From Thermopolyspora flexuosa (GTDB taxonomy: Bacteria > Actinomycetota > Actinomycetes > Streptosporangiales > Streptosporangiaceae), in contig NZ_VFPQ01000001.1 in the NCBI RefSeq assembly GCF_006716785.1, positions 1,612,001 to 1,676,000 on the forward strand: a stretch of DNA of 64,000 nucleotides, read 5' to 3'. The notes below the pieces were generated by a model, which was not told the origin of the DNA, did no database searches, and was given only the letters and a program-made list of their open reading frames with translations. The position numbers were made by a program, and so were the translations under genes. Of the stretch, positions 23,756 to 47,990 are shown in pieces (the stretch's first letter is position 1; every line of letters begins with the position of its first letter).

Positions 23756-23794
23756 ATAGGTAAGGCTTGCCTTAATAAGGCAAGGCTTTCCTAA
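23756..23794 (+). promoter_or_regulatory. Tandem iron boxes (IdeR/DmdR type) before the siderophore operon
   Basis: Two 19-bp sites each match about 14 positions of the IdeR/DmdR1 consensus TTAGGTTAGGCTAACCTAA: 23756-23774 and 23776-23794 (TAAGGCAAGGCTTTCCTAA). TTGCCT (23767-23772) and TAATTT (23792-23797), 19 bp apart, could be the -35 and -10, so bound repressor would cover the promoter. The entA start is at 23811. Confidence 0.75.
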
Positions 23795-27268: not shown

Positions 27269-27919
27269 GTGGCGATTCCCCACATCTCCCCCTACCCGAT
27301 GCCGGCCGAGCCGCCCGCGCCCAACCGGGTGGCGTGGACCCCCGACCCGCGCCGGGCCGTACTGCTCATCCACGACATGCAGAACCACTTCCTGCGGCCG
27401 TTCACCCCGGGGCGCTCGCCGCTCACGGAGCTGCTCGCCAACGTCGCCACCCTGCGCGACCACTGCGCCGCCCTCGGCATCCCCGTCGTCTACTCGGCCC
27501 AGCCGGGCGCGCAGACCGCCGAGCAGCGCGGGCTGCTCAGCGACTTCTGGGGCGCGGGGATCGGCCCCGACCCGGAGGACGCCCGCATCGCCGACGCGGT
27601 CGCCCCGCGCCAGGGGGACGTGCACCTCACCAAGTGGCGGTACAGCGCGTTCCAGCGCACCGGGCTCGCCGAGCTGCTCGACGGGTGGGGCCGCGACCAG
27701 CTCATCGTGTGCGGGATCTACGGGCACATCGGCGTGCTGATGACCGCCTGCGAGGCGTTCATGCGGGACATCCGGCCGTTCGTGGTCGCCGACGCGATCG
27801 CCGACTTCTCCGCCGAGCACCACCGGATGGCGCTGGAGTACGCGGCGACCCGCTGCGCCATGACGGTCACCACGGCCGGGCTGATCCGCGAGCTGTCCGG
27901 GCAGGTGGCCGGTGTCTGA
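27269..27919 (+). CDS. entB: Isochorismatase (without carrier domain)
   Basis: 216 residues from GTG 27269. The Asp (LLIHDMQNHFLRPF) and Lys (LTKWRYSAFQRT) of the isochorismatase fold are present. The position of the usual catalytic Cys is Gly in VCGIYGHIGVLMTACEAFMRD, as in EntB and PhzD, so this is a true isochorismate hydrolase. It yields 2,3-dihydro-DHB plus pyruvate. EntB and DhbB normally carry a C-terminal aryl carrier domain; here the protein ends before it, and the carrier is a separate gene overlapping by 8 nt. Confidence 0.93.
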   Translation: MAIPHISPYPMPAEPPAPNRVAWTPDPRRAVLLIHDMQNHFLRPFTPGRSPLTELLANVATLRDHCAALGIPVVYSAQPGAQTAEQRGLLSDFWGAGIGPDPEDARIADAVAPRQGDVHLTKWRYSAFQRTGLAELLDGWGRDQLIVCGIYGHIGVLMTACEAFMRDIRPFVVADAIADFSAEHHRMALEYAATRCAMTVTTAGLIRELSGQVAGV

Positions 27920-28169
27920 GCCGACCCCTGCCGCCGCCGCGCTGCGCGCCCGCATCGCCGAGCTGATGTACCTCGAGCCGGAGGACCTGGAGTTCGACGA
28001 GAGCCTCATCGACCAGGGGCTCGACTCGATCCGGGTGATGACCCTCATCGAGGAGTGGAAGACCGAGGGCATCGAGCTCACCTTCCCCGACCTCGCCGAG
28101 GACCCGACGATCACCGCCTGGGCGAGGCTGCTCGACGAGGCGCGGGCCCGCCTGGGGGAGGGGCGATGA
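27912..28169 (+). CDS. Stand-alone aryl carrier protein (ArCP)
   Basis: 85 residues from GTG 27912. The phosphopantetheine site is Ser39 in [17 protein letters not shown], the GLDS(I/M)R form of aryl carrier domains. It carries the DHB thioester from the ligase to the starter condensation domain of the NRPS. It starts inside entB (8-nt overlap) and overlaps the NRPS by 4 nt. Split from isochorismatase, unlike the fused EntB/DhbB, either by domain fission or as a different lineage. Confidence 0.92.
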
Positions 28170-31100
28170 GGCTCACCGGTGCCCAGCCGGGCATCTGGTT
28201 CGCGCAGCGCCTCGACCCGGAGAACACCGTCTACAACACCGCCGACCGGATCGACATCCGCGGCCCGGTCGACGTGGCCGCGCTGCGGCGGGCGATCGAG
28301 CGGTGCATGGCCGAGGCGGAGATCTTCCGGGCCCGGTTCACCGAGCGGTACGGCGAGCCGGAGCTGCACCTCGACGGCGGGATCCGGCCGGTGGCCGTGG
28401 CCGACCTGCGCGGCGAGCCCGACCCGCAGGCGGCGGCCGAGGCGTGGATCGCCGCCGACCTCGGCCGGCCGCAGGACCTGGTGACCGGGCGGCTCTACAC
28501 CCAGGCGCTGCTGCGCCTCGCCGACGACCACGTGGTCTGGTACCAGCGCATCCACCACATCCTCGTCGACGCCTACGCGCTCACCCTGCTCGTCGACCGG
28601 GTCGCCGAGCTGTACGGCACGGCCGACCCTGGGCCGAGCCCGTTCGGGCGGCTCGCCGCGCTCGCCGACGAGGAGGAGGCCTACCGGAACTCCGGCCGGT
28701 ACGCGGCCGACCGCGCGTACTGGGCGGGCGTGCTCGCCGACCGGTCGGAGACCGGCCCGGCCACCCCCGCCCGCCGCATCGTGCGGCACGCCACGGCGCT
28801 GCCCGGCCCCGCGCACTTCGCCGACCTGGCCCGGCACGCCCGGGTCACCTGGGGCGAGATCGCGGCCGCCGCCGTCGCGATCTACCTGGGCCGCCTCACC
28901 GGCCGCGACGAGCTGCTGCTCGGCCTGCCGATGATGAACCGCACCGGCGCCGCGCTGCGGGTGCCGTCGGCCACGGTGAACGTGGTGCCGCTGCGGCTCG
29001 CCGTACCGCCCACGCTGCCGCTGGACGAGCTGCTGCGGCAGGCCGCGCGGAGCATGGCGCAGGCGCGGCGGCACCAGCGGTACCGGATGGAGGACATCCG
29101 GCGGGACGCCGGGCTCGCCGGGAGCGCGGACGCGCTGTTCGGCCCGGTGATCAACATCAAGCCGTTCGCCCGCGCGGTGTCCTTCGGCCCGTGCAGCGCG
29201 ACGGTGACCAACCTCGCCGCGGGCCCGGTCGACGACCTCGCGGTCGCGGTGATGCCGGACGGCGACCGGCTGCTGCTCGAGCTCGACGGCAACGCCGACC
29301 GGTACACCCCCGAAGACTTGGCGGCCCATGCCGGGCGGCTCGCCCGGCTGCTGGCGCGGCTCGGCGAGGTGCCGCCGGACACCCCGCTCGGCGCGCTCGA
29401 CGCGCTCGGCGCCCCCGCGCTCCCCGAGCCCGCGGCGGCCGCCGACCGGCCGCTGCTGCCCGAGGTGTTCGACCGCCAGGTGGCGGCCACCCCGGACGCG
29501 GTCGCGCTCGTCGCGGGGACCGAGCGGCTCACCTTCCGCGAGCTGGGCGATCGGGTGCACCGGCTCGCCGCCGAGCTGGTACGGCGCGGCGCGGGCCCCG
29601 GCCGGCTGGTCGCGATCCGGCTGCCCCGCTCGGCCTCGTTCGTGGTGGCCGTGCTCGCCGTGCTGCGCAGCGGCGCCGCGTTCCTGCCGATCGACCCCGA
29701 GTACCCGGCCGAGCGCCAGGGCTTCATGCTCGGCGACGCCCGGCCGCTGCTCACCGTCACCGAGGACGGGATCCTCGCCGGTCCGGCGGCGGCGCAGGGG
29801 GACGCCGCCGACCCCGCAGGGCCGCGCGCCTTCCCGGAGATCACGCCGGACGATCCGGCGTACGTGATCTACACGTCGGGCTCCACCGGCCGCCCCAAGG
29901 GCGTGCTCGTCCCGCACCGCGGCCTGGCCGCGCTGTTCGAGAGCCACCGCGACCGGCTGTTCCCGGACCGGCCGATCCGGGCCGCGCACACCGCCTCGTT
30001 CTCCTTCGACGCCTCGCTCGACCCGCTGCTGTGGCTGGCCGGCGGCCACGAGCTCCACCTCGTCGACGACGAGACCCGCCGCGACCCCGAGGCGCTCACC
30101 GCGTACCTGCGCGAGCACGGCATCGGCTACCTCGACCTCACCCCGTCCCACCTCGCCGAGCTGCCCGCCGTACTCGACAACCCTCCGGCGATCACCGTGG
30201 TGGGCGGCGAGGCCGTGCCCGAGCCGCTGTGGCGGCGGCTCGCCGCGGCCGAGGGCGTCACCGCGGTCGACCACTACGGCCCCACCGAGGCCACCGTCGA
30301 CGCCTACACCTGGCTCGGCGACGGCACCGAGGGGCCCACCGCCGGGACCCGGGTCTACGTGCTCGACCAGGCGCTGCGGCCGGTCCCGCCCGGCGTCGCG
30401 GGCGAGCTGTACCTCGCGGGCGAGGGCCTCGCGCTCGGCTACCTGGGCCGGCCCGGGCTCACCGCCGAGCGGTTCGTCGCCGACCCGTACGGCCGGCCGG
30501 GCGAGCGCATGTACCGCACCGGCGACCGGGCCCGGTGGACCGCCGACGGCAGGCTGGAGCTGCTCGGCCGCGGCGACGACCAGATCAAGGTGCGCGGCGT
30601 GCGCATCGAGCCCGCCGAGGTGGAGGCCGCGCTCGCCGCCCACCCGCAGGTGACCGCCGCCGCGGTCGCGGTCCGCGGCGGGCGGCTCGTCGGCTACGTC
30701 ACCGGCGACGCCGACCCCGAGGCGGTGCGCGCGTTCGTGGCCGAGCGGCTGCCGCAGGGCATGGTGCCGAGCGTGGTCGTGCCGGTGGACGCGCTGCCGC
30801 TCACCCCGAACGGCAAGCTCGACCGGGCCGCGCTGCCCGACCCCGGCGTGGAGGCGTCCGGGCGGCCGCCGCGCACCCCGGCCGAGCGGGCGCTGTGCCG
30901 GATCTTCGCCGAGGTGCTCGGCGTGCCCGCGGTCGCCGCCGACCGGTCCTTCTTCGATCTGGGCGGGCACTCGCTGCTCGCCGCCCGGCTCAGCGTGCGC
31001 ATCCGCGCCGAGCTGGGCGCCCGGATCTCGGTGGCGGACATCTTCGCCGCGCCCACCGTGGCCGAGCTCGCCGTGCGGCTCGGCGAGGCGGCCGCGGCGG

Positions 31101-34100
31101 CCGAGCGGCCCCCGCTGCTGCCCCGGCCCCGCCCCGAGCGCCCGCCGCTCTCCTACGCCCAGGCGCGGCTGTGGTTCCTCCACCGTCTCGAGGGGCCGAG
31201 CCCGACGTACAACATCCCGCTCGTGCTCACCCTCACCGGCCCGCTCGACGTCGACGCGCTGCGCGCCGCGCTCGGCGACGTGGTGGCCCGGCACGAGATC
31301 CTGCGCACCGTCTTCCCCGACGAGGGCGGCACGCCGTACCAGCTGGTGCGCGAGCCGGAACCGGTGCCGCTGCCGGTGACCGAGCCGGACGACCCGCAGG
31401 CGGCGATCCGGGAGCTCGCCCGGCACCCGTTCGACCTCGCCGTCGAGACCCCGCTCCGCGCCCACCTGCTGCGCACCGGCCCCGAGGAGCACACGCTGCT
31501 GCTCGTGCTCCACCACATCGCCGGGGACGGCTGGTCGACCGGGCCGCTGCTGCGCGACCTCGCCGCCGCGTACGCCGCCCGGCGGGAGGGCCGGGCGCCG
31601 GACCTCGCGCCGCTGCCGGTGCAGTACGCCGACTACACGCTCTGGCAGCGGGAGCTGCTGGAGACCGTCGCCGACGAGCAGCTCGCGTACTGGACCGAGG
31701 CGCTGCGCGACCTGCCCGACCGGCTCGAGCCGCCCGCGGACCGGCCGCGGCCGCCCGCCGCCACGTACCGGGGCGGCACCGTGCCGGTCGCCTTCGACGC
31801 CGAGGCGCTGGCCCGGCTCGCCCGGGACGGCGGCGCGAGCGTGTTCATGGTGCTGCAGGCCGGGCTCGCCGCCCTGCTCCACCGGCTCGGCGCGGGCACC
31901 GACGTGCCGATCGGCACCCCGATCGCCGGGCGGGACGACCCCGCGCTGGAGGACCTCGTCGGGTTCTTCGCCAACACGCTCGTGCTGCGCACCGACCTGT
32001 CCGGCGACCCCACGTTCCGGGAGCTGCTGGAGCGGGTGCGCGGCACCGACCTGGAGGCGTACGCGCACGCCGAGCTGCCGTTCGAGCGGCTGGTCGAGGC
32101 GATCAACCCGGCCCGGGCGCGCAACCGGCACCCGCTGTTCCAGGTGATGCTCGTCCACCAGGGCGGCCAGGACGCCGTTGTGGAGTTCCCCGGCCTGACC
32201 GCCCGGCTCGGCCTCGCCACCACCGGGACCGCCAAGTTCGACCTCACCCTCAACGTGGGGGAGGACGGCACCGGGTTCCTCGAGTACGCCGCCGACCTGT
32301 TCGACCACGCCACCGCCGAGGACCTCGCCCGGCGGCTGGAGCGGCTGCTCGCCCAGGCCGTCGCCGACCCCGACCGCCGGGTGAGCGAGTACGACGTGCT
32401 GCTCCCCGGCGAGCACGACCGGCTCGTCCGCGAGTGGCGGGCCGCCCCGCCCGGGGACGGCCCGGACTGGAGCGGCCGCACCCTGCCGGAGGTCTTCGCC
32501 GAGCAGGTACGGCTCCGCCCGGACGCGGTCGCGGTCACCATGGGGGAGGAGCGGCTCAGCTACGCCGAGCTCGACCGGCTCGCCAACCGCCTCGCCCACC
32601 GGCTCATCGCCCAGGGCGCCGGCCCCGAGCGCATCGTGGCCCTCGCCATGCCGCGCTCGGTCCGGCTGGTGGCCGCGCTGCTCGCGGTGCTCAAGGCGGG
32701 CGCCGCCTACCTGCCGCTCGACCCCGACTACCCGGCCGAGCGCATCGAGTACATGGTCCAGGACGCCCGGCCGGTGTGCGTGGTCGACGAGGGCTGGTTC
32801 GCCGGCCTGGACGCCTGGCCGGACCACGACCCGGAGGTCACGGCGGGGCCCGGCAACGCCGCGTACGTGATCTACACCTCCGGGTCCACCGGCCGCCCCA
32901 AGGGCGTGGTGGTCACCCACGCCAACGTGCTGCGGCTGTTCACCGCCACCGACCACTGGTTCCGGTTCGGCCCGGACGACGTGTGGACGCTCTTCCACTC
33001 CTACGCCTTCGACTTCTCGGTGTGGGAGCTGTGGGGCGCCCTGCTGTACGGCGGCCGGCTCGTGGTCGTGCCGTACCGGGTGTCCCGCTCGCCGGGCGAC
33101 TTCCTCGACCTGCTCGAGCGCGAGCGGGTCACCGTGCTCAACCAGACGCCGTCGGCGTTCTACCAGCTCGTCGCGGCCGACGACGGCCGGGAGCTGGCGC
33201 TGCGGTACGTGATCTTCGGCGGCGAGGCGCTGGAGCTGTCCAGGCTGCGCGACTGGTACGCCCGCCGCCCGGACCGGCCGCTGCTCGTCAACATGTACGG
33301 CATCACCGAGACCACGGTGCACGTCACCCACCGGGAGCTGTCGCCCGCCGACCGGGAGGGCGGCCCGATCGGGCGGGGCATCCCCGACCTGCGGGTCTAC
33401 CTGCTCGACGAGCGGCTCCGGCCGGTCCCGCCCGGCGTGGTCGGTGAGCTGTACGTCGGCGGCGCGGGCGCGGCCCGCGGCTACCTCGGCCGCCCGGGGC
33501 TGTCCGCGATCCGGTTCGTCGCCGACCCGTACGGCCCGCCGGGGTCGCGCATGTACCGGTCCGGCGACCTGGCCAGGTGGCGGCGGGACGGCACCCTCGA
33601 CTACGTGGGCCGCGCCGACCACCAGGTGAAGGTGCGCGGCTTCCGCATCGAGCTCGGCGAGATCGAGGCGGTGCTGCTCGACCACCCGGCCGTGGCGCAG
33701 GTCGCCGCGGTGGTCCGCGAGGACCGGCCGGGCGACCGGCGGATCGTCGCCTACGTGGTGCCCGCGGACGCCGAGCTCGCGGCCGACCCGCGGCGGCTCG
33801 CCGCCACGCTGCGCGGCCACGCCACGACCGTGCTGCCGGACTACATGGTGCCCGCGGCGTTCGCGCCGCTGGAGCGGCTGCCGCTCACCGCGAACGGCAA
33901 GCTCGACCGGGCCGCGCTGCCCGCGCCGCAGGTGCTCGGCGACGAGTCGCGGCCCCCGGCCGACCCGCGCGAGGCGACGCTGTGCGAGCTGTTCGCCGAG
34001 GTGCTCGGCGCGGCCCGGGTCGGCGTCACCGACGGGTTCTTCGACCTGGGCGGGCACTCGCTGCTCGCGGTCCGGCTGGTGAGCCGGATCCGGGAGACGC

Positions 34101-34963
34101 TCGGCGTGGAGATCTCGATCGGCGACCTGTTCGAGGCGCCCAGCCCGGCCGCGCTCGCCGCGCTGCTCGACCGCGGCGAACGGGCCGACCCGCTCGGCGT
34201 GCTGCTGCCGCTGCGCTCCGCCGGGGACCGGCCGCCGCTGTTCGCGATCCACCCCGCGGGCGGGCTGAGCTGGTGCTACAGCGGGCTGATCCGCGCCATC
34301 CCGGCCGGGCACCCGATCTACGGCGTGCAGGCGCGGCGCGACCCGCTGCCGGCGAGCATGACCGAGCTCGCCGCCGACTACGTCGCGCAGATCCGGTCGG
34401 TGCAGCCGCGCGGGCCGTACCACCTGCTCGGCTGGTCGGCCGGCGGGATCATCGGTCACGAGGTCGCGGTGCAGCTCCGGGAGGCCGGTGAGGAGGTCGC
34501 CACGCTGGCGATGCTCGACGCCTACCCGGCGGACGGCTTCCGGCTGCTGCCGCCCGCCGACGAGGCCGAGGCCATGGAGGCGCTGCTCACCATGGGCGGC
34601 TTCCACCCGGACATCGTGCCCAGGCTCGAGCTCGACGCGGTGATCGAGGTGTTGCGCCGCGAGGGCAGCCCGCTCGCCGGGCTCGGGCCGGAGGTGCTCG
34701 CCTCGCTGAAGGACCTCTACCTCAACCTCAACCGGCTGATCCGGGAGTTCTCGCACCGGACCTTCGACGGCGACGTGCTGTTCTTCCGCGCCGTGGTGGA
34801 CACCGTGGACGACGGCCTCACCGCCGACACCTGGCGGCCGTACGTCACCGGGCGGATCGTCAACCACGAGGTGGCGTGCAGCCACAAGGACATGACCCAG
34901 CCCAAGCCGATCGCCGAGATCGGCGCGATCGTCGCGGCGCGGCTCAAGGAGCGGCACCCGTGA
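28166..34963 (+). CDS. Dimodular siderophore NRPS, C-A-T-C-A-T-TE (DhbF-like)
   Basis: 2265 residues from ATG 28166, overlapping the carrier gene (ATGA). C1 has HHILVDA at 130-136; A1 has [10 protein letters not shown] near 570 and Lys884; T1 Ser936; C2 HHIAGDG at 1116-1122; A2 [10 protein letters not shown] near 1571; T2 Ser1965; TE Ser2091 in GWSAGG. Reading pocket residues by alignment to GrsA gives A2 = D F W N I G M V H K, the canonical Thr code. A1 = D A D D V G H V D K (Asp615 first) has several acidic residues and suggests Arg, Lys or Orn. Layout and terminal Thr imply threefold iteration by the TE and a trilactone, as in bacillibactin or griseobactin. No epimerisation domain is present, nor an MbtH partner in the window. 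Confidence 0.95.
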
Positions 34964-36465
34964 GCCGGACCCGCGAGCCCGGGCGTGACCCGGAGGGGAG
35001 CCCGGTGAGCGGCCCGGGACCGGCCACCGAGCGGGGAGGCGGCATGGGCGGGCGCCCGGCCGCCTCCCGGCCGCCGGCCGTGCTCGGATTCGTCTACGTG
35101 GCCGCGATGGTGATGAGCGGGCTCGACGCCACGATCGTCAACCCCGCGCTGCTCACCATCGGCACCGACCTCGGCGTCGCGCCCGCCGCCACCAACCTGG
35201 TGGAGTCGGCGTTCCTGGTGAGCCTGTCGGTGGCGATGCCGGTCGCCGGGTGGCTGTGCGACCGGTACGGCGCGGCCCGCACCTTCCTCGCCGCGCTCGC
35301 CGCCTTCACCGCGGCCTCGGCGCTGTGCGGGCTCGCCTGGAACCTCGCCGCGCTCGTCGCCTTCCGGGTGGTGCAGGGCGTCGCCGGGGGCCTGCTCACC
35401 CCGGCCGGGATGACCATGCTCTTCCAGGCCTACCCGCCCGAGCGGCGCATGCGGCTGTCCCGGCTGCTCGCCATCCCGACCGCCCTCGCCCCCGCGGCCG
35501 GGCCGATCCTCGGCGGCCTGCTCACCGAGCACGCCACCTGGCGGTGGGCGTTCCTCGTCAACGTGCCGCTCGGCGTGCTCGCGGTGGCCTGCGGGCTGCG
35601 CCCGCTCGGCCGCATCGGCGACCGGCCGCCCGAGGCGTCCCGGCTCGACCGCACCGGGCTGCTGCTCGCCGTACCCGGGTTCGGGATGCTGCTGTACGCG
35701 CTCGGCGACGGGCCGTTCCGCGGGTGGGCCTCGCCGGTGATCCTGGTGCCGCTGCTCGGCGGCCTCGCGCTCGCCGCCTGCTACGTGCGCACCGCGCTGC
35801 GCACCCCCGAGCCGCTGCTCGACCTGCGGCTGCTTCGCGACCGGCGGTACGGCGCGGGCACGGCGGTCACCTCGCTGGCGGCGGCCGGGCTCATGGGCAT
35901 GCTGTTCGTGTTCCCGCTGCGGTACCAGGACGAGCTGGGGGCGAGCGCGGCCGACGCCGGGCTCGTGGTGTTCCCCGAGGCGCTCGGCCTCATGGCCGCC
36001 TCGTCCGTGGTCGACCGGGTCTGCGCCCGGGCCGGCGCCCGCCCGGTGATCGCGGCCGGGCTCGCGGGCGGGGCCGCGCTGTTCGCCCTGCTCGGCCTGA
36101 CCGACCTCGATCCGTGGAGCCTGCGCGCGGCCATGTTCGGCGTCGGTTTCGTGCTCGGCCATGCGGTGCTCGCGGTGCAGGTGGCCTCGTTCGACACGAT
36201 CCCCGGGGACGCGATGGGCCGGGCGATGGCGCTGTTCCAGTCGGTGCGCATGCTCGGCGGCTCGCTCGGCGTGGCGGCCTGCGCGATCGCGGCCGCCGCC
36301 TCCTACGCGGCGGGCCTGCTCGTCGCCGCCGGCCTGCTCGCGGTCGCGTTCGGGGTCACCGTGGCCGCGGCCGCGCTCGGCGGACGCCCGGCCCCGGCAG
36401 GCGCGGCCGAGCCGTCCGGCCCGTCCGGCACGGCGCCGCCCGAGCCGTCCCCGGCCGAGGGGTGA
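34960..36465 (+). CDS. MFS exporter of the siderophore locus (EntS/DHA2-like)
   Basis: 501 residues if it starts at GTG 34960 (GTGA overlap with the NRPS). GTG 35005 (GGAGGGGAG ahead) and ATG 35044 (GGGGAGG ahead) are equally good or better starts and remove a Gly/Pro-rich leader. From [25 protein letters not shown] the DHA2 pattern is clear: 12-14 helices, [13 protein letters not shown] after TM2 and [11 protein letters not shown] in the middle. Its position directly after the NRPS suggests it exports the finished siderophore. The C-terminus is a Pro/Ser/Ala tail. A strong hairpin follows. Confidence 0.88.
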
Positions 36466-36471
36466 TCGAAA

Positions 36472-36503
36472 GGCGCCGTATCGGGAGCTCCCGCTACGGC
36501 GCC
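36472..36503. terminator. 32-bp near-perfect palindrome between convergent operons
   Basis: Arms 36472-36487 and 36488-36503 pair over 16 bp with one mismatch (36481/36494); the centre is GGGAGCTCCC. It starts 6 bp after the exporter stop and ends 27 bp before the convergent amidohydrolase stop. A bidirectional terminator ending both siderophore transcripts. Confidence 0.8.
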
Positions 36504-36530
36504 TGTTACTGATAGGTGCGCGGGGCCGCC

Positions 36531-37658
36531 TCAGGCCGCGCCGCCGGCGAGATCGGCCGCGGTCCAGGCGAGGGCGGTGGCGCCGTCGAGCACCGCCCGG
36601 TCCGCCGAGGCGGAGACCGCGAGCGCGGCGAACGCCTCCTCGTGCGGCGCCGCGCTCCCGTCCCCGATCATGATCATCGGGTGGATCGCCCGGGTGACGT
36701 GGGAGACGTTCGCCATGTCGGTCATCGCGAACGGCTCCTTCTCCACCGGCTCCGGGCGGCCGAGCGCGGCCGCGTTCGCGCCGTAGCAGGCGGCGAGCGG
36801 GGCGTCGTCCCGGAAGTCGAGGTAGTCGGGCTCGGGCCGGGTGAACGTCACCCCGCACCCGGTGGCGATCGCCCCGGCACGGAAGCAGTCCTCGGTACGG
36901 CGGCGCAGCTCGGCCAGGTGCTCGGCGCGGGCCGCCCGCAGCTCGTAGCTCGCCGCCGACCGCGCGGGCACGATGTTCGGGGCGTCCCCGGCGTGCGTCA
37001 CCACGCCGTGCACGTGCCGGTCCCGGGGGAGCGCCTGGCGCAGCATGCCGATCGCCACCTGGGCGAGGGTCATCGCGTCCGCGGCGTTCCGCCCCTCCCA
37101 CGGGGCGAGCGTGGCGTGCGCGGCCCGGCCGCGGAACTCCACCTCCAGCGTGCCGAGCGCGAACGAGCGGAACCGCACGGTCTCGAACGGGCCGGGGTGC
37201 ACCATCATCGCCGCGTCCACCCCGTCGAACACCCCGGCCTCGAGCAGCAGCGCCTTGCCGCCGCCGCGCTCCTCGGCCGGCGTGCCGATCACCTTCACCG
37301 TCAGCCCGAGGTCGTCGGCGACCGGGGCGAGCGCGAGCCCCGCGCCCACCGACGCCGCGGCGATGACGTTGTGGCCGCAGGCGTGCCCGAGGCCCGGCAG
37401 CGCGTCGTACTCGGCGCAGAACGCCACGGTCACCGGCCCGGATCCGGCGGTCGCGGCGAACGCGGTGGGCAGCCCGCCCGCGCCCGGCGTCACCGCGAAC
37501 CCGCCGTCGGCGAGCAGCTCGGCGCACCAGCGGGCGGCGCGCTCCTCCTCGAACGCGGTCTCCGGGTGGGCGTGGATGCGGTGGCTCAGCCCGAGCAGCG
37601 CCTCGCGCCGCCCCTCGACGGTGGTCCGGATCGCGTCCTTCGCCGTCTGCACGTGCAT
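36531..37658 (-). CDS. M20-family amidohydrolase (AbgB/ACY1L2-like)
   Basis: 375 residues from ATG 37658, with GAGGAGG ahead. The M20 signature is strong: LSHRIHAHPETAFEEERAA, AFCAEYDALPGLGHACGHNV, GTPAEERGGGKALLLEAGVF, and HPMIMIGDGSAAPHEEAF near the end. This subgroup includes AbgB, which cleaves p-aminobenzoyl-glutamate, and other N-acyl amino acid hydrolases. It is last in the minus-strand operon permease-esterase-amidohydrolase (11 bp after the esterase stop) driven from the iron boxes at 40.95 kb. Cleavage of the dihydroxybenzoyl-amino acid amide after uptake is therefore a reasonable guess; it has not been shown. Confidence 0.88.
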   Translation of the reverse strand: MHVQTAKDAIRTTVEGRREALLGLSHRIHAHPETAFEEERAARWCAELLADGGFAVTPGAGGLPTAFAATAGSGPVTVAFCAEYDALPGLGHACGHNVIAAASVGAGLALAPVADDLGLTVKVIGTPAEERGGGKALLLEAGVFDGVDAAMMVHPGPFETVRFRSFALGTLEVEFRGRAAHATLAPWEGRNAADAMTLAQVAIGMLRQALPRDRHVHGVVTHAGDAPNIVPARSAASYELRAARAEHLAELRRRTEDCFRAGAIATGCGVTFTRPEPDYLDFRDDAPLAACYGANAAALGRPEPVEKEPFAMTDMANVSHVTRAIHPMIMIGDGSAAPHEEAFAALAVSASADRAVLDGATALAWTAADLAGGAA

Positions 37659-37669
37659 CCTCAGCCTCC

Positions 37670-38830
37670 TCAGCCGTCCCGGCCCCAGGCGCGGGTCAGG
37701 TGGATGAGCCCGTCGGCGAGCCCGCCCCGCCAGCAGGCGTAGTCGTGGCCGCCGTGGAACTCGCGGAAGGTGATGTCGTAGCCCTTGTCCCGCAACGTCG
37801 CGGCGAAGCGGCGGTTCTCGTCGAGCAGCAGCCACTCCAGCCGCCCCGCCTCCAGGTAGAACCGCACCGGCCGCCGCTCCGCCGCGGCGTACCGGCGGGT
37901 CAGCCACTCGGGGTCGTCGTCGCTCCACCAGTACGAGCCGGACTGGGAGAGCACGTTGCCGAACCGCTCCGGGGCGAGGAACGCGGCGAACGAGGCGGTG
38001 AGCCCGCCGAAGCTCTGCCCGGCGATGATCGTGCGCGCCGGGTCGGCGGTCACGCCGTGCTCGGCCTGCGCCCACGGCAGCAGCCGGTCGGCGAGGAACC
38101 GCACGAACGGCTCGTGGCAGGCGAGCTCGGCGTGCCGGGTGTCCCGGTCCACCGCGTCCGGCATCACCACCACCATCGGCGGCACCACCCGGTCCGCGAC
38201 GAGGTTGTCCATCGTCGTCGGGGCCATGTCCTTCCACACGTCCCCGTCGAGCAGCACGAGCACCGGGTACGGCCCGGCACCCGCGGCCGGGGTGTGGACC
38301 CAGACCCGCCGCCCGTCGAGCACGTGCTCGTGCACGGTCCCGCGCGGCACGCCCGGACGCTCGGCCACGTACGGCTGGGCCGGGGCGTCCGGCAGCTCGA
38401 GCAGCGAGGACGGCGGCCTGCCGTGCTGGCCGGGCAGCACGGCCGGGTTGCGCGGGTCGGGCAGGGCCTCGTCGAGCACCCGCCGCCAGGTGTCGCGGTC
38501 GGTGCCGGGCGGCTCGTCGCAGGGGAGGATCTGGTAGGACACGCGCAGGTCGGAGCCGAGCTCGTAGCTGCGGTAGAGCACGTCGGTGCCCGGCACCCGC
38601 TCCATCAGGTGCCCGGACAGGTCCCCCTCCCAGCGGGCGCGGTCGGTGAGCGTGTGGAGGAGCACCAGCGCCCCGCCCTTCTCCGCCCGCCACAGGAAGG
38701 TCACCCGCCGCGTTCCGGGGTCGGCCGTCTCCTCCACGATGGGGCAGCGGTCCACGCTCTCCCAGAACCCGGGCCGCGCCATGCGCTCGGTCAGCGAGTC
38801 CACCGGCGACACGTCATCCCCTCCGGTCAT
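37670..38830 (-). CDS. fes: Enterochelin esterase-like siderophore hydrolase
   Basis: 386 residues from ATG 38830 (4-nt overlap with the permease gene). The N-terminal Fes-type beta domain (about 10-150) has WRAEKGGALVLLHTLTD and DPRNPA. The C-terminal esterase-D domain contains the nucleophile Ser in IIAGQSFGGLTASFAA and the His in FHGGHDYACWRGG. A GTG at 38812 behind GGAGGGG is an alternative start. It has no signal peptide and should act in the cytoplasm, opening the trilactone of the ferric siderophore to free iron. Co-transcription with the fused permease fits uptake and release. Confidence 0.9.
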   Translation of the reverse strand: MTGGDDVSPVDSLTERMARPGFWESVDRCPIVEETADPGTRRVTFLWRAEKGGALVLLHTLTDRARWEGDLSGHLMERVPGTDVLYRSYELGSDLRVSYQILPCDEPPGTDRDTWRRVLDEALPDPRNPAVLPGQHGRPPSSLLELPDAPAQPYVAERPGVPRGTVHEHVLDGRRVWVHTPAAGAGPYPVLVLLDGDVWKDMAPTTMDNLVADRVVPPMVVVMPDAVDRDTRHAELACHEPFVRFLADRLLPWAQAEHGVTADPARTIIAGQSFGGLTASFAAFLAPERFGNVLSQSGSYWWSDDDPEWLTRRYAAAERRPVRFYLEAGRLEWLLLDENRRFAATLRDKGYDITFREFHGGHDYACWRGGLADGLIHLTRAWGRDG

Positions 38831-40941
38831 CCGTTCCGATCGGTGAGCAGGGTCCACAGCAGGAAGGGGCCGCCGAGCACGCTCGTCACCACCCCGACCG
38901 GGATCTCCGCGCCGGACACCACCACCCGGCCGAGGGTGTCGGCCGCGACCACGAGCGCGGCCCCGGTGAACGCCGAGCCGAGCAGCGGCACCGCGGCCGG
39001 CCCGGCGAGGCGGCTCGCGATCACCGGCGCGGCGAGCGCGACGAACGCGATCGGCCCGCCCACGCCCACGGCGAGCCCGGCGAGCGCGACCGCGGTGGCG
39101 AGGGTGGCGAGCCGGGCCCGGGCGGCGTTCATGCCGAGCGCGGTGACCACCTCGTCGCCGAACCGCATCAGCCCGAGGCGGCGGCAGGCGGCGATCGTGG
39201 CGGGCAGCAGGATCGCCAGGCCGATCGCCACCGGCAGCGCCACGCCGTACCCGCGGCCGTTGAGGCTGCCGATCGACCAGACGTAGACCGCGGTGGCCGC
39301 GGTGAGCCCGCGCCAGGCGAGCACGGTCTCGGTGAGCGCGGCGGCGATCGCGGTCACCGCGAGGCCGGTCACGATGATCCGGTAGCCCTGGGTGCCGGTG
39401 CCGCCCGCGATGGCGAGCACGACCAGGGCGGCCACCGCGGAGCCGAGCGGGCCGATCCACCAGTGCGCGAACATCGTCGGCGCGGCGCTGACCAGCCCGG
39501 CGACGAGGATCGCGACCACCGCGCCCTGGTTGACGCCGAGCAGGTCGGGGGTGGCGAGCCGGTTGCGGGCGAGGGTCTGGGTGAGGCACCCGGACAGGCC
39601 GAGCGCCGCCCCGGCGACGAACCCGGCCGCCACCCGGGGCAGCCGGAACTCGTGCACGAGCATGGTCGTGGCCGGATCGCCGAGCCCGACCAGGGCCCGG
39701 GCCGCCTCGGCCACGGTGGCGCCCGCCTGCCCGGCGGCCACCCCGGCGAGCACCGCGGCCCCGGCGAGTACGGCGAGCAGCGTGGCCGCGACCGCCGGGC
39801 GGACGCGCACGCGCAGCGACACCGGCCCGGCCCGCAGCACCCGCGGCCGGTCGGTGCGCGGCCACGGCGGCCGCACCGGGAGCCGCCAGGGGAGCGCCCG
39901 CGGACGCCGGCCCGCGGCGCGGCGCACGAGCCGGTCCCCGGCGCCCGCCGCCACCGCCCGGGAGCGGGCCACGACGATCAGCACCGGCCCGCCGACCAGC
40001 GCCACCAGCAGCGACACCGGCGCCTCGTACGGCCGGATCACCACCCGGGCGAGCACGTCGGCGGCGAGCAGCACCACGGCGCCGATCAGCCCGGACGCGG
40101 CGAGCCGCGCCCCGACGTTCGCGCCCGCCACGGCGCGCGCGAAGAAGCCGGACAGCAGCCCGAGGAACCCGATCGGCCCGGCCACGGCGACCGCGGCCGC
40201 GCTGAGCAGGGTGACCGCCGCGGTCACCGTGATCCGGGTGAGCGCGGGCCGGCTGCCGATCGCGCGGGCCACGTCGTCGCCGAGGGAGAGCGCGGCGAGC
40301 GGCCGGACCGCGGCGATCGCCACGGCGAGCCCGACCGCGAACGCCGGGGCGACCGCGGCGAGCCGCTCCGGCGGCACCCCGGCGAGCGAGCCGAGCACCC
40401 AGAACCGGTACAGGTCGTAGGTGGTGGTGTCGGACATGAGGATCGCGGAGGTGAGCCCGCCCAGGGTGGCCGAGAGCGCGGCCCCGGCGAGCACCAGCCG
40501 CAGCGGGGAGGCGCCGCGGGCGATGAGCAGCACCACCGCGCTCGTGGCGAGTGCCCCGCCGAGCGCCCACACCAGGTACGCCCCGCCGGTCTGCGCGCCG
40601 GCGAGCGTGATGCCGAGCACGACGCCGAGGGCGGCGCCGGAGTTGACCCCGAGCAACCCGGTCTCGGCGAGCGGGTTGCGGGTGACGGTCTGCAGCAGCA
40701 TCCCGGAGATGCCGAGCGCGGCCCCCACCACCACGGCGGCGGCCGTGCGGGGCAGCCGCAGCGTGGTCACCACCATCTCCAGGTGTGCGTCGGCCGACTC
40801 GCCGAGCAGGTACGCGATGACCTGCCCCGGCCCGATCCGGCCGGCCCCGGTGAGCATGGAGGCGCACGCCAGGAGGATGAGCGCCAGACCGAGCGCGGTG
40901 AGGACGGTGCGGACACCGGCACGGCGCACTTGCGTAAGCAT
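38827..40941 (-). CDS. Fused FecCD-type iron-siderophore ABC permease
   Basis: 704 residues holding two FecCD domains, about 1-335 and 365-704. Each has the family's RLPR block (TTLRLPRTAAAVVVGAALGISG and HEFRLPRVAAGFVAGAALGLSG), then NPLAETGLLGVNSGA or NRLATPDLLGVNQGA, and a GPIGFLGL or GPIAFVAL segment. About 20 helices in all; in most systems these are two proteins. The connecting segment is Arg/Pro-rich and cytoplasmic. The ATG at 40941 directly abuts the iron box, leaving no room for a ribosome site, so either the mRNA is leaderless or translation starts lower. No ATPase gene is adjacent. Confidence 0.93.
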   Translation of the reverse strand: MLTQVRRAGVRTVLTALGLALILLACASMLTGAGRIGPGQVIAYLLGESADAHLEMVVTTLRLPRTAAAVVVGAALGISGMLLQTVTRNPLAETGLLGVNSGAALGVVLGITLAGAQTGGAYLVWALGGALATSAVVLLIARGASPLRLVLAGAALSATLGGLTSAILMSDTTTYDLYRFWVLGSLAGVPPERLAAVAPAFAVGLAVAIAAVRPLAALSLGDDVARAIGSRPALTRITVTAAVTLLSAAAVAVAGPIGFLGLLSGFFARAVAGANVGARLAASGLIGAVVLLAADVLARVVIRPYEAPVSLLVALVGGPVLIVVARSRAVAAGAGDRLVRRAAGRRPRALPWRLPVRPPWPRTDRPRVLRAGPVSLRVRVRPAVAATLLAVLAGAAVLAGVAAGQAGATVAEAARALVGLGDPATTMLVHEFRLPRVAAGFVAGAALGLSGCLTQTLARNRLATPDLLGVNQGAVVAILVAGLVSAAPTMFAHWWIGPLGSAVAALVVLAIAGGTGTQGYRIIVTGLAVTAIAAALTETVLAWRGLTAATAVYVWSIGSLNGRGYGVALPVAIGLAILLPATIAACRRLGLMRFGDEVVTALGMNAARARLATLATAVALAGLAVGVGGPIAFVALAAPVIASRLAGPAAVPLLGSAFTGAALVVAADTLGRVVVSGAEIPVGVVTSVLGGPFLLWTLLTDRNG

Positions 40942-40979
40942 AAGGTAAGGCTAACCTAAAGAAGGTAAGCCTTACCTTT
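40941..40979. promoter_or_regulatory. Divergent iron boxes between permease and binding-protein genes
   Basis: TAAGGTAAGGCTAACCTAA (40941-40959) matches the IdeR/DmdR1 consensus at 17 of 19 positions. AAGGTAAGcCTTACCTT (40962-40978) is a perfect 17-bp palindrome of the same type. They fill most of the 56 bp between the divergent starts at 40941 and 40998 and should repress both genes when iron is plentiful. Confidence 0.85.
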
Positions 40980-40997: not shown

Positions 40998-41978
40998 ATG
41001 TTCGCATTCCGCCGCGTGGGCGGGCTGATCGCCACCACGGTGCTCGCCGCGCTGGCCCTGGCCGGCTGCGGTGGCGGCGGTGACTCCGCCACCACCGGTG
41101 AGGCCGCCCCCGACTCCTCGTCCTCCGCCGCCGCGACGCGGCAGATCAAGGACGCGACCGGCACGATGATCACCGTGCCGGCGAACCCGCAGCGGGTGGT
41201 CACCCTCACCCAGGAGGACCTCGACGCCGCCCTCGCCCTCGGCGTCAGGCCGGTCGGCATCACCAACGGCCAGGGCCTCGACAGGCCTCCGGCGTACCTG
41301 GAGGACAAGGTCGCGGGCATCCCGATCGTCGGCAACCTGCTCCAGCCGGTGATCGAGAAGGTGGTCGAGGTCAAGCCCGACCTCATCCTCGCCGGTGACA
41401 TGCAGGACCAGCAGATCCTCGACCAACTCAGGAAGATCACCCCGGCGACCGTCGTCACGATGGCCCCCACCGACGACTGGAAGCTGTCGTTCAAGGCGAT
41501 CGCCAACACGCTCAACAGGCTCGACGAGGCCGAGAAGGTGCTCGCCGACTACGAGGCCAAGGTCGCCGAGGTGAAGGGCAGGCTCGGAAAGAACGCCGGC
41601 GCCGAGGTGAGCATCGTGCGGTGGAACCCGCAGGGCCCGAGCTGGATGGAGAAGCGGCAGTTCTCCAGCATGATCGCCACCGACCTCGGCCTCAAGCGGC
41701 CCAAGGCCCAGGACAAGGACGGCACCGCCCACTCCATGCCGCTCAGCCTCGAGGCCCTCGACGAGATCGACGGCGAGTGGCTGTTCTTGTCCAGCCTCAC
41801 CGAGGACGGCCGGAAGGCGCTCGACGAGGTCAAGGAGACCAAGGCGTTCAAGGAGCTCGACGCGGTCAAGAACGGCCGCGTGGTCACCGTGGACGGCTCG
41901 GTGTGGAGCACCCGCGGCGGCCCGCTCGCCGCCCAGGTCGTGCTCAGCGACTACGCCAAGGCCCTCGCCGACGGGTGA
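40998..41978 (+). CDS. Iron-siderophore binding lipoprotein
   Basis: 326 residues from ATG 40998, GGGAGC ahead. Lipoprotein signal: MFAFRR, a hydrophobic stretch, and lipobox LAGC with Cys24; a Ser/Ala linker follows. The mature FecB/FhuD-type fold shows ATGTMITVPANPQRVVTL at the start, VEVKPDLILAGDMQDQQILDQL in the middle and RVVTVDGSVWSTRGGPLAAQVVL at the end. It captures the ferric siderophore outside the membrane for the fused FecCD permease encoded divergently. Both share the iron-box region. No ATPase follows; the gene is monocistronic. Confidence 0.93.
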   Translation: MFAFRRVGGLIATTVLAALALAGCGGGGDSATTGEAAPDSSSSAAATRQIKDATGTMITVPANPQRVVTLTQEDLDAALALGVRPVGITNGQGLDRPPAYLEDKVAGIPIVGNLLQPVIEKVVEVKPDLILAGDMQDQQILDQLRKITPATVVTMAPTDDWKLSFKAIANTLNRLDEAEKVLADYEAKVAEVKGRLGKNAGAEVSIVRWNPQGPSWMEKRQFSSMIATDLGLKRPKAQDKDGTAHSMPLSLEALDEIDGEWLFLSSLTEDGRKALDEVKETKAFKELDAVKNGRVVTVDGSVWSTRGGPLAAQVVLSDYAKALADG

Positions 41979-42095
41979 CCGGCTCCCCCTGACCGGAAAA
42001 CCTCGCCATCCCCGCGTTCCAGCGTTCCCCCGACGCTCCGCACCCCCGCGCGCACCGGCTCACCGCGCGATCATGCGGCCGGTTAGCATGCGGGG

Positions 42096-42797
42096 GTGCG
42101 AACGCTTGTGCTCTGGGACATCGACCACACCCTCATCGACGTCGCAGGGCTGAGCCGGGAGATCTACGGCGCGGTGTTCCGCGACGTCACCGGCCGCCCG
42201 GTCACCCGTTTTCCGGACATGTCGGGCCGGGCGGACCGCTCGATCATCACCGCGCTGCTCGACCTCAACGGCGTCCCCGCCACCGGCGACCTCGTGGACA
42301 CGTTCGCCGAGGCACTCGCCAAGACGTACGAGGACCGGCGGGACGAGCTCACCGTCCGCGGCCGGGAGCTCCCCGGCGGCCGGGCCGCGCTCGCCGCGCT
42401 CGCCGGGCGCCCCGACGTGGCCCAGTCGGTCCTCACCGGCAACATGAAGCCGATCGCGATCTGCAAGCTCACCGCGTTCGGCCTGCACGAGTACGTCGAC
42501 TTCGACATCGGCGCGTACGGCCTCGACGGGCTGGAGCGGCCGTCCCTCGTCCGGTTCGCCCGCGAGCGGGCCCGGGCGAAGTACGGCCGGGCCTTCGGCG
42601 CGCACGACACCGTGCTGATCGGCGACACGCCCCGGGACGTGCAGGCCGGGCACGAGGGCGGCGCCCGGGTGGTCGCGGTCGCCACCGGACGCAGCGACGC
42701 CGCCGCCCTGCGCGCCGCCGGCGCCGAGATCGTGCTGCCCGACCTCGCCGACACCGCGGCCGTGATCCGGTCGATCCTCCAGGCCGGCGACGGCTGA
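42096..42797 (+). CDS. HAD-superfamily hydrolase (phosphatase)
   Basis: 233 residues from GTG 42096. HAD motif I is LWDIDHTLID with Asp8 and Asp10; motif II is Thr in SVLTGNMKP; motif III Lys is near the cap return (AFGLHEYVDF region); motif IV is TVLIGDTPRDVQAG. The cap is the small alpha-helical C1 type of phosphoglycolate phosphatase-like enzymes. Substrate unknown. It stands alone, 117 bp after the binding-protein gene, with no iron box of its own. Confidence 0.9.
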   Translation: MRTLVLWDIDHTLIDVAGLSREIYGAVFRDVTGRPVTRFPDMSGRADRSIITALLDLNGVPATGDLVDTFAEALAKTYEDRRDELTVRGRELPGGRAALAALAGRPDVAQSVLTGNMKPIAICKLTAFGLHEYVDFDIGAYGLDGLERPSLVRFARERARAKYGRAFGAHDTVLIGDTPRDVQAGHEGGARVVAVATGRSDAAALRAAGAEIVLPDLADTAAVIRSILQAGDG

Positions 42798-44058: not shown

Positions 44059-46143
44059 ATGAGTCGGGACAAGGCACGCGTGCGGATCGGCATCGACACC
44101 GGCGGCACGTTCACCGACGTGGTCGCGGTCGATGAGACCACCGGCCGGATCGTCACCACCAAGACCCCCTCGACCCCGGCGGACCCGGCGGACGGCTTCA
44201 TGGCCGGCGTGGCGAAGGTGCTGTCCGACGCCTACGGGCTCGACATCACGCTCGACGACGTCGTCGGCATCGTGCACGGCACCACCGTGGCGACCAACCA
44301 GCTGCTCGAGGACCGGCCGCAGGACCTCGGGTTCATCACCACCGAGGGCTTCGAGTTCCTGCTGGAGATCGCCCGGCAGAGCGTGCCGGACGGCTACGGC
44401 AACTCGTACTTCTGGGTGAAGCCGCCGCGCATCGTCCCGGTGCACCGGGTCAAGACCGTGGGCGGCCGCCTCGACCACCTCGGCAACGAGGTGCGCCCGT
44501 TCGACGAGGAGGAGGCCGTGCGGGTGGCGCGGTGGTTCCGCGACCGCGGGATCAACGCGATCGGCGTGTGCTTCCTGCACTCCTACGCCAACCCCGCGCA
44601 CGAGGAGCGCATGCGCGAGGTGCTCGCCCGCGAGCACCCGGAGGCGGTCGTCTCCATCTCCAGCGAGGTGCTGCGCGAGTACCGCGAGTACGAGCGCTCG
44701 GTCACCACGCTCGTCGACGCCTCGGTCAAGCCGACGATGCGCCGCTACATCGCCATCCTGTCGCAGCGGCTCGGCCGCGGCTTCTCGGTGATGAAGAGCA
44801 ACGGCGGCGTGCTGTCCGCGACCGAGGTGGTCAACCAGCCGATCACCACCGTGCTGTCCGGCCCGGCCGCGGGCGCGCTCGGCGCCGCGCTCATCGCCTC
44901 CACCGCGGGCCACCCCTCGGTGATCACCCTCGACGGCGGCGGCACCTCCACCGACGTCGCGGTCATCGTGGACGGCGAGCCGTCGATCACCACCGAGGGC
45001 ACGATCGGCCGCTACCCGTGCAAGATCCCGATGATCGACATCGTCACGGTGGGCGCGGGCGGCGGCTCGATCGCGTGGATCTCCCCGGAGGGCACGCTCA
45101 AGGTCGGCCCGCGCAGCGCGGGCGCCGACCCCGGCCCGGTGTGCTACGCCCGCGGCGGCACCGAGGTCACCGTCACCGACGCGCACGTGTTCCTCGGCCG
45201 CATCCCGCCGCACCTGCTCGGCGGCGAGATCCCGCTCGACGTCGCCGCCGCCAGGGCCGCGATCGAGGAGCTCGCGACCAAGCTCGGCCTCACCCCCGAG
45301 CGCACCGCCACCGGCGTGCTGGAGATCAGCGCGTTCAACCAGTCGAACGCGATCCGGCAGATCACCGTGCAGCGCGGCCTCGACGTGCGCGACTTCCCGA
45401 TGGTCGCGTTCGGCGGCTCCGGCCCGCTGCTCGTCTGCCGGCTCATCGACATCCTCGGCCTCAAGGCGGTGATCGTGCCGCCGGACCCGGGCAACGTGTC
45501 CGCGTTCGGCCTGCTCACCGTGGACGTGAAGAACGACTACGTGCGCACGTTCGTCACCCGCGACCGGGACCTCGACCTGGCGGCCGCCGCGCGCGTCCTC
45601 GCCGAGCTGGAGGCCCAGGCCGCCGACGCCCTCGACCGCGAGGGGTTCGCCCGCGACCGGCACGTCTACGCCCGCAGCGTCGACCTGCGCTACTACGGCC
45701 AGGCGTACGAGGTGCGCGTCCCGGCACCGTCCGGCCCGGTCGACGAGGCGTGGCGGGCGGCCGTGGTCGACCGGTTCCACGAGGCCCACGAGCGGCTGTA
45801 CGGCTACGCGTACCGGGACGACCCGCGGCACGCGGTCGAGTGGGTGAACCTGCGGGTCTCCGGCATCGGGCCGATCAACCGGCCGAAGATCGCCGAGCGG
45901 CCGCGCCGCGCCCCCGGCGAGCGGCCGCCGCAGCCCGCGTACCGGCGCGTCTTCTTCGACGAGGACGGCGCCGGCTGGCGCGACACGCCCGTGTACGACC
46001 GGGGCGGCCTCGCGCCCGGCGACGTCATCGACGGCCCCGCCGTCATCGAGGAGTACGGCTCCACCCTTCCCCTCCACCCCGGCTTCCGGGCCGAGGTGGA
46101 TGCCTACGGCAACATCGTGGTCGAGCGCAGGGAGAACCAGTGA
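44059..46143 (+). CDS. hyuA: Hydantoinase/oxoprolinase family protein, subunit A
   Basis: 694 residues from ATG 44059. Hydant_A_N begins RIGIDTGGTFTDVVAVDETTG, an ASKHA phosphate-binding loop; the hydantoinase_A core shows GIVHGTTVATNQLLE, TLDGGGTSTDVAVI and MVAFGGSGPLLVCRL. The family uses ATP to open five-membered cyclic amides such as hydantoins or 5-oxoproline, or to carboxylate ketones (acetone/acetophenone carboxylase). Subunit B overlaps by 4 nt. Nothing in sequence fixes the substrate; a nucleobase-derived ring such as a hydantoin would fit the neighbourhood. Confidence 0.9.
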   Translation: MSRDKARVRIGIDTGGTFTDVVAVDETTGRIVTTKTPSTPADPADGFMAGVAKVLSDAYGLDITLDDVVGIVHGTTVATNQLLEDRPQDLGFITTEGFEFLLEIARQSVPDGYGNSYFWVKPPRIVPVHRVKTVGGRLDHLGNEVRPFDEEEAVRVARWFRDRGINAIGVCFLHSYANPAHEERMREVLAREHPEAVVSISSEVLREYREYERSVTTLVDASVKPTMRRYIAILSQRLGRGFSVMKSNGGVLSATEVVNQPITTVLSGPAAGALGAALIASTAGHPSVITLDGGGTSTDVAVIVDGEPSITTEGTIGRYPCKIPMIDIVTVGAGGGSIAWISPEGTLKVGPRSAGADPGPVCYARGGTEVTVTDAHVFLGRIPPHLLGGEIPLDVAAARAAIEELATKLGLTPERTATGVLEISAFNQSNAIRQITVQRGLDVRDFPMVAFGGSGPLLVCRLIDILGLKAVIVPPDPGNVSAFGLLTVDVKNDYVRTFVTRDRDLDLAAAARVLAELEAQAADALDREGFARDRHVYARSVDLRYYGQAYEVRVPAPSGPVDEAWRAAVVDRFHEAHERLYGYAYRDDPRHAVEWVNLRVSGIGPINRPKIAERPRRAPGERPPQPAYRRVFFDEDGAGWRDTPVYDRGGLAPGDVIDGPAVIEEYGSTLPLHPGFRAEVDAYGNIVVERRENQ

Positions 46144-47990
46144 CCGAGCAGAAGGCGCCCGCCGCCACCGTGGACCCGGTGCTGATCGAGATCGTCGAGG
46201 GCACCCTCGCCTCGGTGGAGAAGGAGGTGGAGACCGCGATCGCGCGGACCGCCCGCTCCCCGATGATCCGCGACGCGCACGACTTCCGCGCCGGCATCCA
46301 CGACGTGAAGCTGCGCAAGCTCACCGGCCGCTCCTACTCCGCCCTGGTCAACCCGATCGTCCGGGACTTCCCGATCGAGACGATGAACCCGGGCGACGTG
46401 TTCTTCCACAACGACGTCTACCTGTCCGAGGGCGGCATCGGCCACCTGCCCGACCTGTGCGTCACCGTGCCGGTGTTCCACAAGGGCGAGGTGGTGGCGT
46501 TCGTCCAGGCGTTCGGCCACCACGACGACATCGGCGGGGCGGTGCCCGGCTCGATGCCGTCGCACGCGCGCAGCGTGTTCGAGGAGGGCCTCATGGTCCC
46601 GCCGATCAAGCTGTGGGACCGCGGCGTGCCGAACGAGGCCGCGCTGCGCATCATGACCCGCAACTCCCGCATGCCGGACTCGCTCGCCGGCGACCTCGAC
46701 GCCGAGTGCTCGGCCTGCCTCATGGGCGCCCGGCGGCTGGCGGAGCTGTTCGACCGGTACGGCCGGGAGGCGGTCGAGGCCTGCTTCGACGCGATCATCG
46801 AGAAGACCACCGAGACGTTCCGGCGCGAGCTGCTGTCGAAGATCCCCGAGGGCGCGTACGTCTGGGAGGACTACGCCGAGCACGACGGCGTGGACGAGCC
46901 CAAGCTGCACACCCAGCGGATCACCCTCACCGTCGACCACAGCAGGCCCGCGCCGCTGCTCATCGACTTCACCGGCACCTCGCCGCAGGCGAAGGGCCCG
47001 ATCAACCACGCCGGGGACTACGCCGACGGCGTGTTCCTCAAGAAGTGGCTCGCCCCGATCCTGCGCAACCTCGCCGACACGCCCGAGCGCATGGCCGAGC
47101 TCGACGTGAACGAGGGCGTGGTGCCGCTCATCGAGATGCGGTTCCCGGAGAAGGGCACCCTGCTCACGCCGATCTTCCCGGCGCCGACGAACGCCCGGAC
47201 GTTCGTCATCCTGCGGCTGCTCGGCGTGCTCGCCGGGGTGCTCGCCAAGGCCACCGGGGGCCGCATGCCCGCCGACCAGGAGACGATCCGGTACACCGGC
47301 GTGTACGGCACGAACGACGACGGCGAGCCGTACCTGATGCGCGAGGTGCTCGGCGGCGGCTCCGGCGGCCGCTGGTACGCCGACGGCGAGGACACCATCC
47401 ACGTGGTGCCGGACTCGCGGAACATCCCGGTGGAGTTCGCCGAGGCGCGCTGGCCGCTGCGGGTGGAGCGGCTCGGCCTCGCCGTGGACAGCGGCGGCCC
47501 CGGTAGGTTCCGCGGCGGCCTCGGCTACGACAAGCACATCCGCATGCTGCGCGACGCCTCGTTCATGTCGATCGCCGACCGGTCGATCCTGTCCTGCTGG
47601 GGCGTGAACGGCGGCAAGGCGGGCCGGCCGTTCCGGGTGGAGATCGAGGGCCGCGAGCTGGAGGGGCTCGTCGACGACGAGCCGGTGCGCGCGGGCGAGG
47701 TGATCCGCATCCGCACCACCGGCGGCGGTGGCTGGGGCTCGCCGTACGACCGGGAGCCGGAGCGGGTCGCCGCGGACGTGCGCGACGGCAAGGTCTCCTT
47801 CGAGGGCGCCCGCGACGACTACGGCGTGGTGCTCACCGGCCCGCAGGACGAGCCGCAGATCGACTGGGAGGCGACCGAGAGGCTCCGCGCCCGGCTGCGC
47901 GCGGCCGACGACACCCCGTTCTTCGACCGCGGCCCCGGCTACCCGATCCTCTCCGGCGGCAAGCTCCACGCCGACGTGGACGTACTGTAA
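46140..47990 (+). CDS. hyuB: Hydantoinase/oxoprolinase family protein, subunit B
   Basis: 616 residues from GTG 46140 (GTGA overlap with subunit A). Hydantoinase_B hallmarks: DPVLIEIVEGTLASVEKEVE, ARTARSPMIRDAHDFRAGI, NPGDVFFHNDVYLSEGGIGHLPD, GHHDDIGGAVPGSMP and a glycine-rich end with TTGGGGWGSPYDREPERVAAD. It pairs with HyuA as an ATP-dependent cyclic amidase or carboxylase. Metal ligands of the family (HxD-type pairs in FHNDVYLSEG and HHDDIGG) are present. The following histidine phosphatase starts 5 bp later and may be part of the same transcript. Confidence 0.9.
   Translation: MTEQKAPAATVDPVLIEIVEGTLASVEKEVETAIARTARSPMIRDAHDFRAGIHDVKLRKLTGRSYSALVNPIVRDFPIETMNPGDVFFHNDVYLSEGGIGHLPDLCVTVPVFHKGEVVAFVQAFGHHDDIGGAVPGSMPSHARSVFEEGLMVPPIKLWDRGVPNEAALRIMTRNSRMPDSLAGDLDAECSACLMGARRLAELFDRYGREAVEACFDAIIEKTTETFRRELLSKIPEGAYVWEDYAEHDGVDEPKLHTQRITLTVDHSRPAPLLIDFTGTSPQAKGPINHAGDYADGVFLKKWLAPILRNLADTPERMAELDVNEGVVPLIEMRFPEKGTLLTPIFPAPTNARTFVILRLLGVLAGVLAKATGGRMPADQETIRYTGVYGTNDDGEPYLMREVLGGGSGGRWYADGEDTIHVVPDSRNIPVEFAEARWPLRVERLGLAVDSGGPGRFRGGLGYDKHIRMLRDASFMSIADRSILSCWGVNGGKAGRPFRVEIEGRELEGLVDDEPVRAGEVIRIRTTGGGGWGSPYDREPERVAADVRDGKVSFEGARDDYGVVLTGPQDEPQIDWEATERLRARLRAADDTPFFDRGPGYPILSGGKLHADVDVL

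Follow-up and report, generated by a model that had tools for sequence, protein, structure and literature searches.

In most accounts, an esterase performs the last step of iron release from trilactone catecholates. In Dickeya, the hydrolase CbsH is reportedly homologous to Fes, with serine as its nucleophile, and mutants lacking it are said to accumulate chrysobactin. In Streptomyces griseus, a 2010 report is said to have identified griseobactin, a cyclic siderophore of DHB-Arg-Thr units. The griseobactin cluster of S. griseus and its relatives contains DHB genes, a two-module NRPS, an exporter, a binding protein, Fes and an M20 metallohydrolase. The window analysed here, a stretch of 64,000 nucleotides from Thermopolyspora flexuosa, resembles it in all of these, including matching adenylation codes, and its M20 falls in the same clade. 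The arrangement differs, however, since in S. griseus the M20 gene is divergent from the NRPS gene and has its own iron box, while the window has it behind Fes, in the permease operon. The esterases Fes and BesA hydrolyse enterobactin and bacillibactin, respectively, in the cytoplasm after uptake (PMC8891985). CbsH is listed as "chrysobactin oligopeptidase" (PMC4079955). The esterase in the window is of the same type as Fes and BesA. To our knowledge, the operons described for enterobactin and bacillibactin do not encode a further enzyme that cuts amides.

The window operon consists of three minus-strand genes in the order permease, esterase, M20. The first encodes a fused ferric-siderophore FecCD permease of 704 amino acids (38827-40941; Pfam FecCD, 2.3e-145). 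The second encodes a Fes-type trilactone esterase of 386 amino acids (37670-38830) with Enterochelin_N and Esterase domains and a GQSFGG nucleophile motif (Ser273), scoring 266 bits against the NCBIfam enterochelin esterase cut-off of 222. The third encodes an M20 metallohydrolase of 375 amino acids with a dimerisation domain (36531-37658), which reaches 184.6 bits with TIGR01891, above the curated cut-off of 153.75. The ATG of the esterase gene overlaps the permease stop codon by 4 nt (ATGA), the M20 gene starts 11 bp past the esterase stop, and no terminator-like sites were found within the operon. An inverted repeat 3' of the M20 gene forms a strong predicted hairpin (36471-36504; folding z -5.9) and is likely to be the common end of this operon and of the convergent exporter gene; no T-run terminator was found there. 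A gene for a ferric-siderophore binding lipoprotein (40998-41978, plus strand) diverges from the permease gene, and between the two lies an iron box of the DtxR/IdeR type, TAAGGTAAGGCTAACCTAA (40941-40959). It has 2 mismatches to the palindrome, while 100 shuffles yielded no site even at 3 mismatches. The preliminary description had proposed an iron-box operon of permease, trilactone esterase (4-nt overlap) and M20 (11-bp gap), and the coordinates, domain models and shuffle control bear it out; the iron box suggests that the operon is regulated by iron. By eye, no signal peptide is evident in the esterase or the M20, and both are therefore probably cytoplasmic. No ABC transporter ATPase gene adjoins the permease or binding protein genes in the window (41979-42100); in Streptomyces loci, such a gene adjoins that of the binding protein (e.g. 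L109, 12341-13132). Further downstream (44059-47990), two large plus-strand genes resemble paired hydantoinase/oxoprolinase-type subunits, as judged by eye only.

The biosynthetic genes lie on the plus strand. They encode a DHB dehydrogenase (dhbA, 23811-24545), an isochorismate synthase (dhbC, 24602-25714), a DHB-AMP ligase (dhbE, 25698-27257), an isochorismatase (dhbB, 27269-27919, assigned by likeness to the isochorismatases of related loci and not by a family-model score), a stand-alone aryl carrier protein (27912-28169), an NRPS with the layout C-A1-T-C-A2-T-TE (28166-34963) and an MFS exporter (34930-36465, start approximate). Upstream of dhbA, the region 23756-23794 holds two tandem weak iron-box-like sites (at 23756 and 23776), with 5 mismatches each. 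The specificity codes of the adenylation domains were read by hand from their motifs. A2 has the code DFWNIGMVH, which is a Thr code, and A1 has the Arg-like code DADDVGHVD, identical at 8 of 9 positions to that of S. griseus (DADDVGLVD). The DHB-X-Thr unit that had been proposed can thus be read from the neighbouring NRPS. Because the A1 code is so close to that of the griseobactin maker, X is probably Arg, a reading that leans on this code and on the reported chemistry of griseobactin. The DHB genes and an NRPS of the form C-A(Arg)-T-C-A(Thr)-T-TE place the locus, as far as specificity codes can tell, among the griseobactin-type clusters.

The M20 proteins of siderophore loci form a single clade on a long stem (SH-aLRT 99 in a quick tree), and between them and other M20s identity drops from 71% to 56%. 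Among the named genomes, loci with an M20 of at least 65% identity are nearly all DHB clusters, including those of S. griseus, S. anulatus, S. globisporus, Kitasatospora and Embleya, while those at or below 57% are not. In the sample of the window's order, 7 of 200 further genomes have an M20 of about 74-79% identity, each adjoining a Fes, so that the clade stands beside Fes in 8 of 8 genomes having it; M20s below 60% identity do not adjoin Fes. Almost all members of the clade lie in DHB-siderophore loci, and none were found in plasmid records. Across 247 Streptomyces genomes, an Arg-type A1 domain is present in 16, the M20 in 17 and both in 16; that is, the M20 occurs in 16 of 16 genomes with the Arg-type NRPS and in 1 of 231 without it, and in the 16 the two lie near each other on a single contig. 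The corresponding Fisher p of 3e-24, from which relatedness is not removed, overstates independence, because the counted genomes inherited one cluster. All first-module A domains readable in loci of the clade are Arg-type, one position of the code varying between Val and Ala, except in two enterobactin-type loci (G711 and G867).

Gene order varies within the clade. In the window's family the M20 gene follows Fes, with a 4-nt overlap in Nonomuraea spiralis, whereas in Streptomycetaceae it adjoins the NRPS gene divergently. In the order sample, genome G176 carries a close Fes, with the M20 and other cluster genes absent nearby; this orthologue (65%; L142, 9073-10209) stands without siderophore genes around it and possibly serves foreign siderophores. 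Three loci from one genus of the window's order (L242, L243 and L245) hold a different DHB cluster with Fes and a fused FecCD, in which the A domain reads about DAWGAGAVN; these three genomes have no M20 of the clade.

A structure model of the M20, built from 66 diverse sequences, has a pLDDT of 96.6. The nearest solved folds, both matching over the full length, are HmrA (Z 51.2) and PM20D2 (Z 49.4, rmsd 1.5, 37% identity), with rmsd values of 1.5-1.9 and identities of 36-37%; the next group follows at Z 37. In these terms the predicted structure is of the PM20D2/HmrA-like group, but this fold does not tell the substrate class. It had been described as AbgB-like, which is correct at the level of the superfamily (TIGR01891), but not in detail: AbgB (3io1) scores Z 35.5 at 22% identity, and in the comparison with solved structures it gives E 4e-10 against 2.1e-63 for HmrA. 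The metal-site residues C94, H96, E130, H154 and H339 and the catalytic E129 are unchanged across the 66 relatives. Y279 aligns with Tyr314 of PM20D2, the residue mutated in 8xzc. Positions specific to the clade include F163, F166, L184, F310 and P338.

Taken together, the genomic evidence makes it fairly probable that the M20 is a cytoplasmic, iron-repressed metallohydrolase that takes part in the use of a griseobactin-type siderophore by breaking down DHB-Arg-Thr, the product of Fes. In general terms, the actinobacterial M20 kept with griseobactin-type genes probably degrades the fragments that the esterase leaves in the cell. The ferric (DHB-Arg-Thr)3 trilactone would be imported through the binding protein and FecCD, and Fes would open its esters to release DHB-Arg-Thr. 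The M20 would then hydrolyse this product at the amide beside the free carboxylate, most likely from the C-terminal end, with Thr removed first and DHB-Arg split afterwards. In this way DHB, Arg and Thr could return to the pool, iron affinity would drop and the chelating peptide would be kept from accumulating. A fuller proposal is more tentative, and we put it at slightly below an even chance: a separate M20 clade would consist of DHB-amino acid amidohydrolases and carry out the second step, amide cleavage after ester cleavage, in taking apart actinobacterial catecholate siderophores, so that DHB and amino acids can be reused. DHB-Arg-Thr is also known as benarthin, a peptidase inhibitor, and this inhibition offers a possible reason to remove it.

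It could also be imagined that the M20 is a carboxypeptidase that cuts the Arg-Thr bond only, leaving DHB-Arg with its DHB amide intact. As a rule, the amide that an M20 enzyme cuts must lie beside a free carboxylate, and in the Fes product that amide is Arg-Thr; for this reason the Arg-Thr bond may go first in any case. Furthermore, the main partner of the clade is the Arg-Thr NRPS, in 16 of 16 genomes. PM20D2, however, is a dipeptidase for basic C-terminal residues, as indicated by the names of its structure entries, and the preference of this type of enzyme fits DHB-Arg better than Arg-Thr. In addition, G711 and G867 carry intact M20s of the clade, 92% alike, next to a cluster of the enterobactin type that has Fes and a single-module synthetase with the Ser code DVWHFSLVD. 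Since the only amide of enterobactin is DHB-Ser, the pair favours DHB-amino acid cleavage, although its weight is limited: it is a single lineage, no iron box was found preceding its two M20 genes, and most genomes with this type of synthetase have no M20 (see below). We regard cleavage confined to the Arg-Thr bond as unlikely. These two genomes also exclude an exclusive partnership of the M20 with Arg-type NRPSs, and an M20 general to enterobactin-type clusters is excluded by about 20 other Streptomyces with an enterobactin-type synthetase (as judged by the starter condensation domain) that have none. In these genomes, as in the three genomes of the window's order that lack the M20, Fes alone seems to be enough.

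The M20 might instead be an ordinary peptidase that sits in the operon by chance and works in the general salvage of peptides or arginine. The broader subfamily is indeed widespread in actinobacteria outside siderophore loci, at 45-57% identity. Against this, the siderophore M20s have a clade of their own, and the gene is kept in 16 of 16 loci despite rearrangement. They also have their own iron boxes, which the outgroup loci lack. Nearly all Streptomycetaceae loci in which the M20 gene lies apart from Fes have such a box 29-263 bp upstream of it, most often at 75-150 bp, and in three further named loci a box is found at 5 mismatches; in the 16 named outgroup M20 loci, no box was found at 4 mismatches (0/16). 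Siderophore-locus M20 genes thus nearly always have an iron box, either their own or that of the operon. Of all the signs that the M20 belongs to the siderophore system, this apparent retention of iron control through changes of gene order is the strongest, and a chance association seems quite improbable.

A role in siderophore use, which we consider likely, is favoured by the window operon and by the arrangement in Streptomyces sp. I05A-00742 (L097, G833), where the FecCD, Fes and M20 genes form an operon, the last two overlapping by 4 nt, with the binding protein and ATPase genes alongside and the DHB genes elsewhere in the genome. The presence of those genes, with a degenerate A domain, excludes this strain as a siderophore thief devoid of biosynthesis and reduces the argument to the M20 travelling with the uptake genes. 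Beside its DHB genes lies the gene for a short, possibly inactive C-A protein (L189, 10495-13233), whose adenylation core motif is degenerate. A biosynthetic M20 that trims a siderophore precursor, as PvdQ does in pyoverdine maturation, would suit the Streptomycetaceae, where the gene is divergent from the NRPS gene with a common iron box region, but it is very improbable, since the M20 gene is the last of the permease-Fes operon in the window's family, stays with the uptake genes and away from the DHB genes in G833, and accompanies an NRPS of normal C-A-T-C-A-T-TE layout that needs no trimming.

A literature search turned up no M20 with this siderophore role (the 2010 griseobactin report lay outside the search) and no demonstration of amide cleavage by this M20. 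If the proposed degradation of the Fes product is correct, it would account for the fate of the still-chelating DHB-peptide and put an enzyme to a DHB-amide bond for which no hydrolase has been assigned in this group. A second, metal-dependent step, present in 16 of 16 sampled griseobactin-type Streptomyces, would then revise the picture in which the esterase ends iron release. Among the known M20 enzymes, human PM20D2, a beta-alanyl-lysine/Xaa-Arg dipeptidase, and HmrA have the same full-length fold, metal-site residues and tyrosine (Tyr314/Y279), but differ in gene context and in the clade-specific residues. AbgB belongs to the same amidohydrolase superfamily, but is farther from the window M20 than PM20D2 is, and the operon has no AbgA-like partner. 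As for siderophore systems, CbsH, like the M20, is a hydrolase that has been proposed to act in the intracellular breakdown of a cationic DHB-amino acid-amino acid siderophore; it is said to be a Fes homologue, however, while the window enzyme is a metal-dependent M20. The claim in the preliminary description that no characterised catecholate system has an amide step was therefore too strong, since CbsH (PMC4079955) is a partial precedent for splitting DHB-peptides inside cells. In comparison with these systems, the M20 appears to be a conserved extra component in a siderophore system of a familiar kind.
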